Shown here: positions 855 to 4,688 of the stretch, in pieces
Numbering within the stretch: position 1 is the first letter of the stretch
Layout: each line of letters starts with the position of its first letter
Assembly (NCBI GenBank): GCA_000961805.1
Contig: LADV01000256.1
Span: forward strand, 1-5,047
DNA: 5,047 nucleotides
Source of the DNA: Peptococcaceae bacterium BRH_c23
GTDB lineage: Bacteria; Bacillota_B; Desulfitobacteriia; Desulfitobacteriales; Desulfitobacteriaceae
Direction of reading: 5' to 3'
Notes under the pieces: generated by a model
Database searches by the model: none
The model's input: the letters and a program-made list of their open reading frames with translations, nothing else
Told to the model about the DNA's origin: nothing
Program-made: the position numbers and the translations under genes

Positions 855-1166
855 ATGTATGAGGATTTATTTTACGAAAGATTAACCACGCTCCGCACAC
901 AAAAAGGAGTTTCTGCAAGGGATATGAGCCTGTCTTTGGGTCAAAGTGAAAGTTATATCAATAAAATTGAGAACAAAAAGTCGCTGCCATCCATGACAGG
1001 ATTTTTTTATATCTGCGAATACCTAAATGTCCCTCCTAAGGATTTCTTTAATGACGAAGTAAGCTTTCCGACAAAATTAAATGATTTGATTAACGAGTCA
1101 AAGAGGCTAAACGACGGCCAATTGGAACATCTTCTGGCTATCATTAAGGACTTAAAGACAACCTAA
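855..1166 (+). CDS. XRE-family helix-turn-helix regulator
   Basis: This 103-aa protein has a strong RBS (AAGGTGGTG, 839-847) 7 nt before the ATG. Residues 7-62 form an XRE/Cro-C1 type HTH: helix 2 is A-R-D-M-S-L-S-L-G (21-29) and the recognition helix is S-E-S-Y-I-N-K-I-E-N (31-40), followed by the usual P-S-M-x-x-F-F-Y-I-C-E-Y-L and P-K-D-F-F. The last 35 residues (K-L-N-D-L-I through I-I-K-D-L-K) look like one or two amphipathic helices, perhaps for dimerisation. The gene is divergent from the DUF1273-Nudix-helicase cluster and is separated from it by a set of symmetric sites, so it most likely controls that cluster and itself, much as controller proteins do beside restriction systems. The frame is intact and ends in TAA followed by an A run. 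The regulatory target is an inference. Confidence 0.9.
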   Translation: MYEDLFYERLTTLRTQKGVSARDMSLSLGQSESYINKIENKKSLPSMTGFFYICEYLNVPPKDFFNDEVSFPTKLNDLINESKRLNDGQLEHLLAIIKDLKTT

Positions 1167-1393: not shown

Positions 1394-1851
1394 TTAAATC
1401 TTTACCGTCTTCTTCATCACAAAACCCGGCAGCGGCTCCTTCATCTTCCAGACAATACTAATCGGTGCCGAGCCATGATGGCTTTGAAAATCGGCAAATC
1501 CAATACAAGTAAAGGTCGCGGCAAAAGCCCCCTCTTTCTTATACTCTCTCACAAAAAACAACACATTCCCACCACTGGTTACTTGGTTAAGATACCTCTG
1601 CCCTGTCAGTGATTCCACCGTCGTCCGGCTTTGAGACTGCCAATGAAACAGCTCTTCATTGATATATCCACCACAAAAACAAAGGTTATTTCCTTCGTTA
1701 CCAGGCGCCGCTTCACGCTATCCCTCACAGCGCTCTCCGATTCCGCGACTAGAAATTCTGAAGGAATCCCCGCTTTATTAAAAACCTGAGCCATAAATTC
1801 AGAATGCTTTTTACTTAAACAAAAGCTAATTCCAATGATCTCCGCAGGATC
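1394..1851 (-). pseudogene. Fragments of a DUF3427-family helicase (core piece + C-terminus, frame-disrupted)
   Basis: Two pieces of one helicase family are read in different frames. The first (about 1851-1664) reads I-I-G-I-S-F-C-L-S-K-K-H-S-E-F-M-A-Q then FNKAGIPSEF, R-D-S-V-K-R-R-L and FVFVVDI, which is the helicase C-terminal lobe (usual form: GFCVS..HAEFMA..FN..GIP, ending IFVVDLYNEGVDIP). From 1663 the neighbouring frame continues I-N-E-E-L-F-H-W-Q-S-Q-S-R-T, GQRYLNQ, VLFFVREYKK, then S-H-H-G-S-A-P-I-S-I-V-W-K and a TAA at 1396-1394. That is the end of DUF3427 (family form: FHWQSQN, GQRYINH, VLLFVREYK, SHEGSKPM.IVWKL). Roughly 400 residues between VVDI and the W-Q-S-Q block are missing, so this is a deletion derivative with a frame change and cannot work. 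It reads as a continuation of the sbcD-like start at 1893. Confidence 0.8.
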
Positions 1852-1893
1852 GCGCTTGCCGATGTGCAGGTCGGCGATGTGTAGGAATTTCAT
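1852..1893 (-). pseudogene. sbcD: Start of an SbcD-like exonuclease gene, fused to the helicase fragment
   Basis: ATG (1893-1891), with a good RBS AAGGAG (1908-1903), begins MKFLHIADLHIGKR. This is the near-invariant start of SbcD/Mre11-type metallophosphoesterases and contains the first metal motif D8-x-H10-x-G12. After residue 14 the sequence changes abruptly, in the same frame, to the helicase C-lobe piece (D-P-A-E-I-I-G-I-S-F-C). About 380 residues of a normal SbcD are absent. The fragment keeps its own translation signals, so a short useless chimera might still be made. It lies 63 nt downstream of the ASCH stop codon. In-frame codons continue upstream to a TTG at 1932, but that extension is not SbcD-like. 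Confidence 0.65.
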
Positions 1894-1956
1894 TGGGCTA
1901 GGCTCCTTCACTAAATTAGGCAATTCTGACAATTATCGAATATTTTGTGCTAACCT

Positions 1957-2325
1957 TCAAATATATACAAACGACTGCGGTGCAAAGCTGATCCCAAAAT
2001 CCGAGAGTTTTAACGGTTCCAGGTATTTTTTTACTTCACCTAACCTGTACGCGATAGCTTTTTCCTTATGCTCAAAATATTGATCATAAAACCTTTTCGT
2101 GATTCCTGAATATTCAGCCGTTATATCCCAAACCTTATCAGGGATATCTTCGATCACTCCAAGTAATTCCACTTCGCCAACTACACGCATGACCGGTGAG
2201 GTTGAATAAATAACAATTTTATCCACATCAGACTTACACTTGATTTTCCGGAACTCGAACTGTTTACTGCCGTTAAAAATATTTTCCACATGCTCAGGGT
2301 TAATCGATAATAACATTTTGCGCAT
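1957..2325 (-). CDS. ASCH-domain (PUA-like) protein
   Basis: This 122-aa protein fits a single ASCH domain: it opens MRKMLLSINPEHVENIF, then has the G19-x-K21-x-x-E24-x-R26 signature, a strand with Y-S-T-S-P-V-M-R-V-V-G-E (40-51), a helical W-D-I-T-A-E-Y-S-G-I-T stretch, and ends P-Q-S-F-V-Y-I. ASCH domains have a PUA-like fold and are thought to bind RNA or modified nucleotides; the K and E/R residues line the cleft. No other domain is present. The start ATG lies 26 nt inside the end of the upstream GNAT gene, with GGGTGA 5 nt before it, so translation is probably coupled. It should share the SOS-controlled promoter at 3455-3481. The exact substrate is unknown. A start at the second Met (residue 4) is possible. 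Confidence 0.85.
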   Translation of the reverse strand: MRKMLLSINPEHVENIFNGSKQFEFRKIKCKSDVDKIVIYSTSPVMRVVGEVELLGVIEDIPDKVWDITAEYSGITKRFYDQYFEHKEKAIAYRLGEVKKYLEPLKLSDFGISFAPQSFVYI

Positions 2326-3373
2326 CTACGTCACCCATCTCCAGTATTTTAGTAAATTGATCCTTACTGAAATCCAATTGATAAGGATGGGAATTAAACA
2401 AGCCTTGATTCTTTAAATCCTTGTGAATAACATTATGTCCTTTGCCAAAATAACCGTTATATACTAATTCCAGCATGATAATATTTTTCTGGTTCTCATA
2501 TGTAACTGTTAATTCCTCCGGAGAAAAAACCGTTTTATTTCCGGCATTTTTAATGAAATCAGCAAGACTTATAGTGGTTTTACCATTACTCTTGATTACT
2601 TCCATCTTAGTTATTGTGCAATAAGATGTAACTGCTGACTTATAGGTTTTTCCCGTATCGCCTTCATATATCCGATAAATATAAACCGGTTCATCAATTT
2701 CATAATGCATCGCCGTAAAAGGAGAAGCTATGTAAACCTTAGTAATCCCATTGCCAGCTGTTTCTTCTTCAATTTCACGTTTCTTGATTTTTAGCTCAGA
2801 ATACGGAAAAAGTCGATCATGGTATCTCTCATAAATCGGAATTAATCCCGCCTTGCTAAAATCTGGACGAATAAACGGAAAAGATTTATAAGGGTCGCTG
2901 TAATCAATTTTACTACGACTTTTTAAATATATACACTCACCACGCCGGTTTCTTCCCATACATATAAACCCAAATCTTTCAAAAAGGTTGATTAGTTCGG
3001 AATATTTTTCATATACTGTAACATAGATTTCCTCAGTCCTATCTTCACACCATTTCCAGAGAGAAACTCCTAACGCTCCCTCTCCAAGCCGCATACCCCG
3101 ATAGCGTTCAGCCAAACGTAATGTACCAATTTTGACGCGTGATATAGCGGGAAGAATTGTTGAATCCGAAAGCTTAATGGCTTCATTTTCCCGTTTCAAA
3201 TAAATAAAAGCTCCCACACCTTGTTCATCATGAAAAACGAGCGCACTCTCCCCAGCATCGCTCTTTCTTTTAAACCAGTCCGGAAATTCCTCGTAATCAG
3301 CCTTGAGAGAATCAAAAAAGCCGTCATCAAGGTCTACCTCTGAAAACTTGTGCCATTCAAACTTTCCAGCCAT
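2300..3373 (-). CDS. GNAT-family acetyltransferase with an additional C-terminal domain
   Basis: The protein has 357 aa. ATG 3373 follows GGAGG (3385-3381) and AGGAG (3379-3375). Residues 1-155 are a GNAT fold: S-A-L-V-F-H-D-E-Q-G-V-G-A-F-I-Y (43-58), the strand V-K-I-G-T-L-R-L (80-87), the acetyl-CoA loop Y91-R-G-M-R-L-G-E-G-A100, and the closing L-F-E-R-F-G-F (130-136). The loop is a variant, with R95 where many members have Gly. After a basic linker with KIKKREIEEE (195-204), residues 210-357 form a second domain with S-P-F-T-A-M-H-Y and P-V-Y-I-Y-R-I-Y-E-G-D, then Y-K-S-A-V-T-S-Y-C-T-I. I do not recognise it firmly; the strand pattern could be PUA/ASCH-like. The acetylated target is unknown. 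A tRNA, a modified base or a protein are all possible. It is the first gene of an operon with the ASCH gene. Confidence 0.8.
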   Translation of the reverse strand: MAGKFEWHKFSEVDLDDGFFDSLKADYEEFPDWFKRKSDAGESALVFHDEQGVGAFIYLKRENEAIKLSDSTILPAISRVKIGTLRLAERYRGMRLGEGALGVSLWKWCEDRTEEIYVTVYEKYSELINLFERFGFICMGRNRRGECIYLKSRSKIDYSDPYKSFPFIRPDFSKAGLIPIYERYHDRLFPYSELKIKKREIEEETAGNGITKVYIASPFTAMHYEIDEPVYIYRIYEGDTGKTYKSAVTSYCTITKMEVIKSNGKTTISLADFIKNAGNKTVFSPEELTVTYENQKNIIMLELVYNGYFGKGHNVIHKDLKNQGLFNSHPYQLDFSKDQFTKILEMGDVDAQNVIID

Positions 3374-3431
3374 TCTCCTACCTCCACTCTATCACTTTAG
3401 GCATTACAATAGATGTAGTCAGGGCCTTCTT

Positions 3432-3447
3432 TAGAACGTATGTTCTA
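3432..3447. promoter_or_regulatory. SOS box (LexA/DinR operator) of the GNAT-ASCH operon
   Basis: TAGAACGTATGTTCTA is a perfect dyad (TAGAAC-N4-GTTCTA) and contains GAAC-GTAT-GTTC, the core of the Bacillota LexA (DinR) box. It begins about at the expected +1 of the minus-strand promoter (-10 at 3460-3455) and covers the first 16 transcribed bases, where a bound repressor would block transcription. It is 59 nt upstream of the GNAT start. Known: LexA binds GAAC-N4-GTTC in Bacillota. Inferred: the operon is induced by DNA damage. Confidence 0.75.
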
Positions 3448-3454
3448 TTGCAAT

Positions 3455-3481
3455 TTTATACCATTTATAGATGAATTGCAA
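3455..3481 (-). promoter_or_regulatory. Promoter of the GNAT-ASCH operon
   Basis: On the minus strand an extended -10, TGGTATAAA (3463-3455), lies downstream of a TTGCAA -35 (3481-3476). The spacer is 15 nt, shorter than the usual 17; the extended -10 TG may compensate. The start would be near 3448, next to the SOS box. TTGCAATT (3448-3455) and AATTGCAA (3474-3481) also form an inverted repeat around the core promoter, perhaps a second binding site. Confidence 0.6.
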
Positions 3482-3506: not shown

Positions 3507-4226
3507 CTATGATTCAAATGAACCAGATAGAATATTCACCGAAACAGCTTCCTCTTCTATTTTGATAGCACGAAGTCTCTGGAACAATGTACCAAGCTGG
3601 TCCCGCATAGATTCTTTTTGTAAATGAAATTCACTTAAACGTTGATATATATTTTTTATCAGCGAGTCAAAAACATCAAAAGTAAGTTCGCCTGTAAAAC
3701 CCATCGTTGTATTCATTTTTGTTTTGAGCATCTGTCGACGTTCTTCAAGTAAAGAAATATCCCGATTGAATTGCTCAACCTTAGCAGAGATTTCTTCGAT
3801 TTCTTTGTTCAGCGCGGATAGTTCTTTTTCCAATTCTTTGGAGATGTTTTGTTTGGTCAAGTCCCAGGATAGCACCATACTTTGGTAGGAGTCTCGGGAA
3901 CTTTTCAGCAGCTCGTCTTTGGCATGATACTCCGCACGTGCCTCAGCCAAGTCTATGCTGCAAAACTCCTGTTTGATACGCGCAAGCAGCGATTCGGCGG
4001 ATGCAAATTCAGTTTGGCATACCGGGCAAGCTTTTAGTTGTGCATTTATGATTTGGGCCCGGATCTGTTCAATAGACGCAATTACTTCGTTGCAAGATGA
4101 TTCCGCTTCCTGAATTCGCTGAGATATCTGCGTTCGCTGTTTGACAATGCTTTGAATTGCGTCATCCTGCACAGTCAATTCGCGAACTTTTTTAATAATT
4201 CCTTGACGATATCGAAGCCCAGGCAT
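3507..4226 (-). pseudogene. SbcC/Rad50-like zinc-hook coiled-coil fragment lacking both ATPase heads
   Basis: The frame gives 239 aa from ATG 4226 and is open back to a TAA at 4274-4272. There is no RBS before the ATG. The zinc-hook motif C67-P-V-C70 sits between charged heptad-like arms: about 45 residues before it (20-64) and about 150 after it (83-230). SbcC/Rad50 proteins have a hook midway between two long arms of equal length, each leading to half of an ABC ATPase head. Here the Walker A half and most of the first arm are absent, and the protein stops (S-G-S-F-E-S) before any signature motif or Walker B. It is therefore a fragment, or less likely a small hook-only protein. Normal SbcC works with SbcD in processing DNA ends and hairpins. 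The only sbcD trace in the window is the 14-codon start at 1893, downstream, opposite to the usual sbcD-sbcC order. Confidence 0.6.
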
Positions 4227-4345: not shown

Positions 4346-4465
4346 TACTGTAACGACTCCCCCGAGAACATCCATACCGACGAGCTGGGGCGGCTGCTCC
4401 AGCCTAACTATGTAACAAAGCATTTTAGCGGGCTGCTGAAAAATGCAAGCTCAGCGATAAGGTTG
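4346..4465 (+). pseudogene. Fragment of a tyrosine (phage/ICE-type) integrase
   Basis: Reading the plus strand in one frame gives N-D-S-P-E-N-I-H then TDELGRLLQPNYVTKHFSGL, L-K-N-A and finally A-I-R-L-F. This matches the segment of tyrosine integrases just before the catalytic H-x-x-R box (typical form: ..TNELGRPLHPNYVSKHFKKLLKKAGLPxIRFHDLRH). The catalytic HDLRH and the later His and Tyr residues are absent: homology ends where the convergent XRE gene begins (its stop is 4451-4453). Upstream, homology begins at the end of the hairpin. About 35-40 codons remain of a normal 350-400, with no start codon, so it is non-functional. It indicates that an integrating element was once here. Confidence 0.6.
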
Positions 4466-4663
4466 TTTATTTTCTGTAAACCCGACCAGGTAGTCAATGC
4501 TGGTTTTATAAAACTGTGCGAGTTTAATCATAATATTTAGCGGAACATCACGCTCCCCTCGCTCATATTTGGAGTATAAAGATTGATCGCACATTAGGTA
4601 TTCCGCAACTTGTTGTTGGGTTAGATCATGATCTTCACGAACATCACGTATTCTTAATCGCAT
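4451..4663 (-). CDS. Small XRE-family helix-turn-helix regulator
   Basis: This 70-aa protein is almost only an XRE HTH. Helix 2 is T-Q-Q-Q-V-A-E-Y-L (15-23), the recognition helix is D-Q-S-L-Y-S-K-Y-E-R-G-E-R (26-38), and the domain closes with the usual P-L-N-I-M-I-K-L-A-Q-F-Y-K-T-S-I-D-Y-L-V-G. I chose ATG 4663 because GGTG (4673-4670) lies 6 nt before it as an RBS; ATG 4669, GTG 4672 and TTG 4675 are in-frame alternatives adding 2 to 4 residues. Upstream lie two dyads built on GGAC-N5-GTCC (4689-4731), which are good candidates for its own operators. It is divergent from the small ORF and response regulator to the right, so it may repress that unit. The frame is intact and full-length for a Cro/C1-type repressor of an island or phage. 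Confidence 0.85.
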   Translation of the reverse strand: MRLRIRDVREDHDLTQQQVAEYLMCDQSLYSKYERGERDVPLNIMIKLAQFYKTSIDYLVGFTENKQPYR

Positions 4664-4688
4664 CAGCATCACCAAAGCAAGTATATCT

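Follow-up and report, generated by a model that had tools for sequence, protein, structure and literature searches.

A GNAT-EVE/ASCH gene pair with a candidate LexA-type operator at its promoter in a Peptococcaceae bacterium

GNAT-EVE fusion proteins are described in the available excerpt of Bell et al. 2020 (PMC7641849) as nearly always encoded with an ASCH gene, often with an AAA_17 ATPase, and as putative components of toxin-antitoxin (TA) systems. The same excerpt states that the modules are common in prophages of beta- and gammaproteobacteria, proposes tRNA as the target, credits the GNAT-EVE + ASCH operon to Iyer et al., and notes that no GNAT-EVE module had been characterised experimentally at that date. 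The stretch analysed here (the window) comprises 5,047 nucleotides, positions 1 to 5,047 of contig LADV01000256.1 (assembly GCA_000961805.1) of Peptococcaceae bacterium BRH_c23. It contains a GNAT-EVE/ASCH pair behind a promoter with a sequence resembling a LexA operator, suggesting a possible link between this module and the SOS response. The original prediction, made from the letters of the window, knew of no described system of this form. That claim does not hold; the operon is in Bell et al., the pair is listed in PADLOC as the phage-defence candidate PDC-M11, and a homologous overlapping pair in the record of coliphage PhiR47_2 (GenBank PV340567.1) is annotated 'GevT toxin' and 'GevA antitoxin'.

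The GNAT-EVE gene (2300..3373, minus strand) starts with ATG and encodes a putative toxin of 357 residues. The ASCH gene directly downstream (1957..2325, minus strand) also starts with ATG and encodes a putative antitoxin of 122 residues. The predicted overlap of the two reading frames is confirmed by the coordinates (26 nt, 2300..2325, minus strand) and is likely to couple their translation. Such an overlap is found in 93 of 100 non-redundant pairs, each frame being taken from its first start codon. A purine-rich ribosome-binding site read off the sequence precedes the GNAT-EVE ATG (3375..3385, minus strand). The range given in the original prediction (2300..3481) holds the GNAT gene, the box and the promoter hexamers and leaves most of the ASCH gene outside. 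The larger protein was rightly described as having two domains; a GNAT acetyltransferase domain (2909..3373, minus strand, residues about 1-155) is followed by an EVE/PUA-like C-terminal domain (2303..2896, minus strand, residues about 160-357). The GNAT domain stands first in the window protein, with no N-terminal PIN domain, and has its acetyl-CoA motif around R95/G97/G99. Weak PIN matches occur in the longer GNAT proteins of L029 and L072 (L codes denote loci and G codes genomes compared with the window).

The GNAT-EVE protein matches PDC-M11A along almost all of its length (residues 6-355, E 1.5e-68) and the ASCH protein matches PDC-M11B (E 3.5e-43). The best PHROGs matches are phrog_6345 and phrog_3136, respectively, neither of which has a known function. 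The predicted structures have a mean predicted local distance difference test score of 90.6 for GNAT-EVE and 95.2 for ASCH. Of 45 aligned relatives, 5 match the EVE model PF01878 at E values up to 1, and a Rhizobium homologue (L221) reaches the cut-off of the model. The closest named relative is Desulfosporosinus meridiei, whose ASCH protein is 98% identical to that of the window and whose genome aligns with the window DNA in two stretches at 92-95% identity. The pair occurs in Bacillota, Pseudomonadota, one spirochaete, one archaeon and many prophages. No DNA-level relatives were found in phages.

The promoter region contains a perfect palindrome resembling a LexA/SOS box, TAGAACGTATGTTCTA (3432..3447, no strand assigned), with the core GAACGTATGTTC at 3434-3445. 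This is the GAAC-N4-GTTC palindrome of the original prediction and the sole exact one in the window; when up to one mismatch is allowed, 3 sites are seen where 1.55 are expected. GAAC-N4-GTTC is the motif read by the LexA of B. subtilis. A LexA matrix built from the boxes upstream of 19 other lexA genes gives it 15.5 bits, the best score in the window. The next site scores 10.2 bits, and the lexA sites range from 11.3 to 20.7. The box starts 7 nt past the -10 hexamer and ends 60 nt short of the GNAT-EVE ATG, which places it over the expected start site. The hexamers (TTGCAA-17-TAAAAT, 3453..3481, minus strand) were recognised by consensus match alone (9/12), and the same TATAAAAT/box spacing is present in L017. 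Since a scan of the window finds 8 such hexamer sites against 5.9 expected, they are weak evidence when taken alone.

Ten genomes with homologous loci (2.2-6.8 Mb) contain 21-61 exact GAAC-N4-GTTC sites each, so that the motif is unlikely to occur by chance at one given promoter. It is not enriched genome-wide, as a control pattern read backwards gives 29-151 sites in the same genomes. A set of 25 lexA loci (11 + 14) was taken from genomes with homologues, with the partial lexA-like matches L059-L066 and L179-L189 excluded. A box of the form [GA]AAC-N4-GTT[CT] lies no more than 200 bp upstream of the matched lexA start in 19 of these loci (29 sites in total). The D. meridiei lexA locus has a box similar to that of the window (GAACATTTGTTT / ACGAACATTTGTTTGC) at -76, and the hosts of the boxed loci L001, L017, L009 and L072 also have a lexA box of this form. 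The identification of a LexA-type operator at the window promoter, as a prediction from sequence, stands up, and confidence in it is higher than in the reading of the whole locus given below.

The count of boxes upstream of GNAT + ASCH pairs, proposed in the original prediction, shows an enrichment. A box lies no more than 150 bp from the judged operon start in 6 of 33 cellular loci (the window, L001, L017, L029, L003 and L009), and before 1 of 174 control ORFs (open reading frames). The one boxed control ORF is DinD by NCBIfam (429.8 bits, cut-off 242). The controls were the other ORFs of at least 120 residues in the fetched regions, excluding the module and 1.3 kb around it; longer regions were added here, so the locus list differs from that of the 33-locus count. 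The binomial probability is 3.5e-8 with the window and 1.1e-6 without it, treating the loci as independent, though they are related. The near-identical pairs L023/L024 and L070/L071 are both among the 33, and none of these four is boxed. The operon start was taken as the GNAT start unless an AAA_17-like gene lies upstream, and one arm of the box was allowed to read GTTT as well as GTTC (or AAAC), which covers the one-mismatch form of L009 and L017. Excluded were L015, L031-L033, L038 and L041, in which the 5' end of the GNAT gene or the sequence upstream is missing, duplicate entries of a locus, and the archaeal L008, with a box at -114 and no lexA match in its genome. The true operon start may differ in L004, L011, L012, L023, L024 and L039 because other genes lie upstream on the same strand, and in L010 because the AAA_17-like gene extends past the contig end.

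The boxes stand where an operator would be expected. Those of L001 and L029 are the same 12-mer as in the window, L029 being a PIN-GNAT-EVE locus. In L003 and L009 the box precedes the AAA_17 gene that opens an AAA_17-GNAT-ASCH operon and lies within the -35/-10 spacer; in L017, L029, L072 and the window it lies just past the -10. In L072 another box stands immediately before the PIN-GNAT-EVE gene, with none before the AAA_17 gene, and the locus is therefore not counted among the six. In a tree built from 51 homologues, the six rows entered as boxed (the window, L001, L003, L009, L029 and the Salmonella phage SopEPhi) require 5 changes against a shuffled mean of 5.8, with L017 not included and L072 entered as unboxed. 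The boxed operons are thus scattered, and the SOS wiring was gained or lost several times.

The viral copies were scanned for both the Bacillus-type box and the E. coli motif CTGT-N8-ACAG. In SopEPhi the pair is orf12-orf13, behind the DinI-like orf11, and two tandem near-consensus LexA sites (4/20 mismatches each) lie upstream of orf10. An exact CTGT-N8-ACAG was found within up to 1 kb upstream in 3 of 64 viral or phage loci: at the operon start in SopEPhi, at -248 inside cI in PhiR47_2 (the sole exact site in 1 kb) and at -626 in L124. A Bacillus-type box lies no more than 250 bp upstream in 1 of the 64. For several of these loci less than 1 kb of upstream sequence was available, and for L081 none. 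Neither motif was found in 7 plasmid loci. Upstream of the Rhizobium plasmid pair (L221), a GAAC-N7-GAAC at -240 resembles the alphaproteobacterial LexA motif but was not counted, being too weak. Within 700 bp, the remaining six plasmid loci lack any LexA-type box of the scanned kinds. In Lactobacillus prophage Lj965 (L069, 4289-6384), four tRNA genes (Ser, Glu, Tyr, Phe) lie directly upstream of the pair. This is a small hint at a tRNA target, and if tRNA is the target these phage tRNAs could be resistant forms.

The two genes are closely associated, and often the GNAT-EVE gene is degraded while ASCH stays whole. A long GNAT frame lies directly upstream of ASCH in 75 of 80 viral loci (the best 80 of 175 matches); of the other five, two are cut by contig ends, one is frameshifted, one has GNAT remnants and one has no GNAT. 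Both proteins were used to search cellular genomes, 299 from a single phylum and 82 from a single class. Wherever a long GNAT-EVE or PIN-GNAT-EVE frame reaches the C-terminus, ASCH lies beside it (13 of 13 genomes), and in G801 and G810 two long GNAT frames surround one ASCH. Seven intact ASCH genes have a GNAT neighbour that is eroded or broken. In G245, G833, both copies of G595 and G805 (D. meridiei), the GNAT has shrunk to a 3' remnant, of about 58 codons in G805. In G008 and G091, in the latter possibly through a sequencing error, the GNAT frame is shifted or interrupted by internal stops. G332, a genome of another sample, also combines an intact ASCH with a truncated GNAT. The stretch upstream of ASCH reads N in G290, and G191 has a GNAT scrap without ASCH. 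Additional, divergent ASCH genes are present in G121, G220, G804, G814 and, as a second one, in G805, at least some of them in other operons. The ratio of nonsynonymous to synonymous substitution rates (dN/dS) for ASCH is 0.04 between the window and D. meridiei, 0.13 between the window and G833, and 0.09 between D. meridiei and G833. Because of these low values the orphan ASCH genes look constrained, with part of the divergence possibly predating GNAT loss. That GNAT-EVE has been lost repeatedly while ASCH was retained supports, without proving, a role for ASCH as the antidote.

Other arrangements were seen around ASCH genes. In L157 (7791-11054) and L158 (6734-9997) a single ASCH gene follows one GNAT-EVE gene and precedes a second, longer one (514 residues, probably PIN-GNAT-EVE) in a tandem array, so one ASCH may serve two GNATs. 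In L208 (215-1666, minus strand) the ASCH frame downstream of a GNAT remnant continues to 483 residues, a possible fusion. L211 (1438-3350), L212 (1438-3355) and L216 (1501-3370, numbered on its reverse strand) hold another operon in which a divergent ASCH is followed by a protein of about 330 residues (in two pieces in L212) and a weak GNAT-like protein.

The closest ASCH fold to the model of the window ASCH protein is ZmASCH (5GUQ), with template modelling scores of 0.85-0.88, a ribonuclease that cleaves single-stranded RNA in a cleft including Tyr47, Lys53 and Ser128, according to the excerpt available (PMC5615036). The fold and most of the cleft residues are found in the window family, where Tyr47, Thr49, Arg32, Tyr90, Gln127 and Ser128 correspond to the invariant or near-invariant Y40, T42, R26, Y83, Q117 and S118. 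The family differs in being 25-26% identical to ZmASCH and in not conserving Lys53 in place. A role as a YqfB-type N4-acetylcytidine amidohydrolase (Lys21-Thr24-Glu74 triad) was also considered. In a motif alignment, which is not a structural one, an invariant Glu24 of G-x-K-x-x-E-x-R stands in the place of Thr24, and this activity was rejected because the threonine is missing.

From these comparisons of sequence, the pair is fairly probably a TA or phage-exclusion unit induced by SOS, with GNAT-EVE as the enzyme that acetylates RNA (most likely tRNA) and ASCH as its antidote. LexA would repress the operon until DNA damage, or a replicating or excising phage, lifts the repression. The EVE-like domain would bring the GNAT domain to nucleic acid, most likely charged or modified tRNA, and acetylation of that RNA would stop translation. 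The ASCH protein may bind or clear the modified RNA, or the toxin. In a damaged or infected cell, new toxin may outrun the antidote, resulting in growth arrest or a block of phage production. The choice of tRNA as the most likely target is by analogy with known GNAT toxins, and the role in nucleic-acid or tRNA conflict suggested in the original prediction is plausible.

Several points weigh against this proposal. The Pfam EVE model does not match the window GNAT-EVE protein itself, and a structure search with the GNAT-EVE model aligned mostly the GNAT half. The GevT/GevA pair of PhiR47_2 lies across a long branch from the window pair on the tree, and no paper explaining these names was found, the matches listed being unrelated uses alone. 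At 6 of the 25 lexA loci no box of the [GA]AAC-N4-GTT[CT] pattern is present, and the host of L003 has a lexA with only a mismatched-arm site, at -166. The loss of GNAT over ASCH is partly expected because the GNAT-EVE gene is three times longer, and the retained ASCH could have a separate job of its own. In G199 a GNAT frame truncated at its C-terminus is accompanied by a partial ASCH on the opposite strand, and in G511, a genome of another sample, a similarly truncated frame has no ASCH within 1.4 kb downstream. The two orphan ASCH copies of G595 have a higher dN/dS of 0.28. Co-induction of a toxin and its antidote need not yield net toxicity. Finally, related pairs without a box had been named in advance as telling against SOS control, and they are common: no box was found in the 150 bp examined at 27 of 33 cellular loci, nor at almost all of the 64 viral loci where examined (one Bacillus-type box within 250 bp and one LexA site at the operon start). 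Since most relatives showed no box, SOS control, and with it the damage link, is an add-on, a lineage-specific wiring rather than a trait of the family.

The alternative that survives best, though it is rather unlikely, is a defence or modification system rather than a classical TA pair. The GNAT would acetylate a DNA or RNA base, the EVE and ASCH domains would read modified bases, the pair would protect or restrict nucleic acid, and SOS control would reflect phage or mobile-element stress. EVE and ASCH domains are thought to be readers of modified bases, and both the PADLOC listing and the presence of the pair in prophages and on plasmids are in line with defence, as are one copy within a few kb of SIR2-family and DUF4365 genes and another adjoining a gene annotated as a dCMP deaminase. 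The repeated loss of GNAT-EVE with ASCH kept would not be expected if the GNAT were the useful part; the ribonuclease as nearest ASCH fold is a further point against it.

It is improbable that the box is a chance palindrome, or the operator of another regulator, and the pair an ordinary constitutive or autoregulated TA module. A site as good anywhere in 5 kb arose in 5 of 300 Markov windows of equal length, and the lexA box was read in relatives rather than in the genome of the window itself; these figures and the many boxless relatives speak for chance. Against it are the position over the promoter and the enrichment over control ORFs, a box at the same place past the -10 in L017, an exact copy of the 12-mer in both L001 and L029, and the different LexA motif before the operon of the pair in SopEPhi. 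Equally doubtful is a scheme in which ASCH is an RNA-cleaving or RNA-binding effector or regulator that GNAT-EVE modifies or tunes, which agrees with the ZmASCH cleavage and cleft residues (PMC5615036, excerpt) and with ASCH surviving alone at low dN/dS in most comparisons, since an RNase toxin is unlikely to be kept repeatedly without its partner and the GevA record, by annotation, names an antitoxin.

The favoured TA or phage-exclusion reading can be extended to the other boxed copies. With somewhat less than an even chance of being right, the extension holds that LexA captured a DNA-damage-triggered GNAT-EVE/ASCH arrest or phage-exclusion module several times independently: alone (window, L001, L017), behind AAA_17 (L003, L009), as PIN-GNAT-EVE (L029, L072), and in a phage dinI operon with an unrelated proteobacterial LexA motif (SopEPhi). 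If so, the SOS response would be coupled directly to the acetylation of tRNA or modified nucleotides, and, provided that the toxin acetylates RNA, translation would come under direct SOS control by way of RNA chemistry. The LexA operators at several copies are a concrete hint as to when the module is switched on and a handle for experiments, and orphan ASCH genes with upstream GNAT scars are a natural test of which gene is the antidote.

The window also has other features around the pair. A decayed region (1394-1932, minus strand) begins with 'MKFLHIADLHIGKR', a start that resembles SbcD, and runs into a helicase-like fragment with a weak RecQ-family match. The SbcD-like start is also seen in L017 (near 16809-17063) and next to the orphan ASCH of D. 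meridiei. On the other side, a coiled-coil ORF of 239 residues (3507-4226, minus strand) with a CxxC motif is weakly SMC/Rad50-like and is perhaps what is left of an SbcC-like gene. Two small XRE-type regulators (HTH_19/HTH_3) flank the region at 855-1166 (plus strand) and 4451-4675 (minus strand), the second resembling the RstR repressor.

TacT, AtaT and ItaT are GNAT toxins that acetylate tRNA and usually have a ribbon-helix-helix antitoxin as partner. The window protein has the same GNAT fold, and a translation-blocking role is proposed for it; it differs in its ASCH partner and its additional EVE-like domain. The higBA pair of IncC plasmids, an example of a TA module under an SOS box, belongs to other toxin and antitoxin families than GNAT-EVE/ASCH. 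It is described as inducible by ciprofloxacin in a paper that discusses LexA and SOS boxes (PMC8265657). GevT/GevA of PhiR47_2 is about 29% identical to the window pair and lies directly behind cI in a lambdoid immunity region, and the pair of phage 4A7 likewise lies directly behind cI. In the open-licence literature covered, Bell et al. 2020 is the sole paper for GNAT-EVE as a name and none was found for PDC-M11; nothing on SOS or LexA wiring of the pair was found among the matches listed. The operon in the excerpt of Bell et al. (PMC7641849) and PDC-M11 share with the window family the domain order, the ASCH gene directly downstream and, in some copies, an AAA_17 gene or PIN fusion. SOS control is not mentioned in that excerpt, whereas LexA-type boxes recur at the operon start in the loci compared here. 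The GNAT-EVE/ASCH module itself is therefore already known, though little studied, and the SOS wiring of its promoter looks new.

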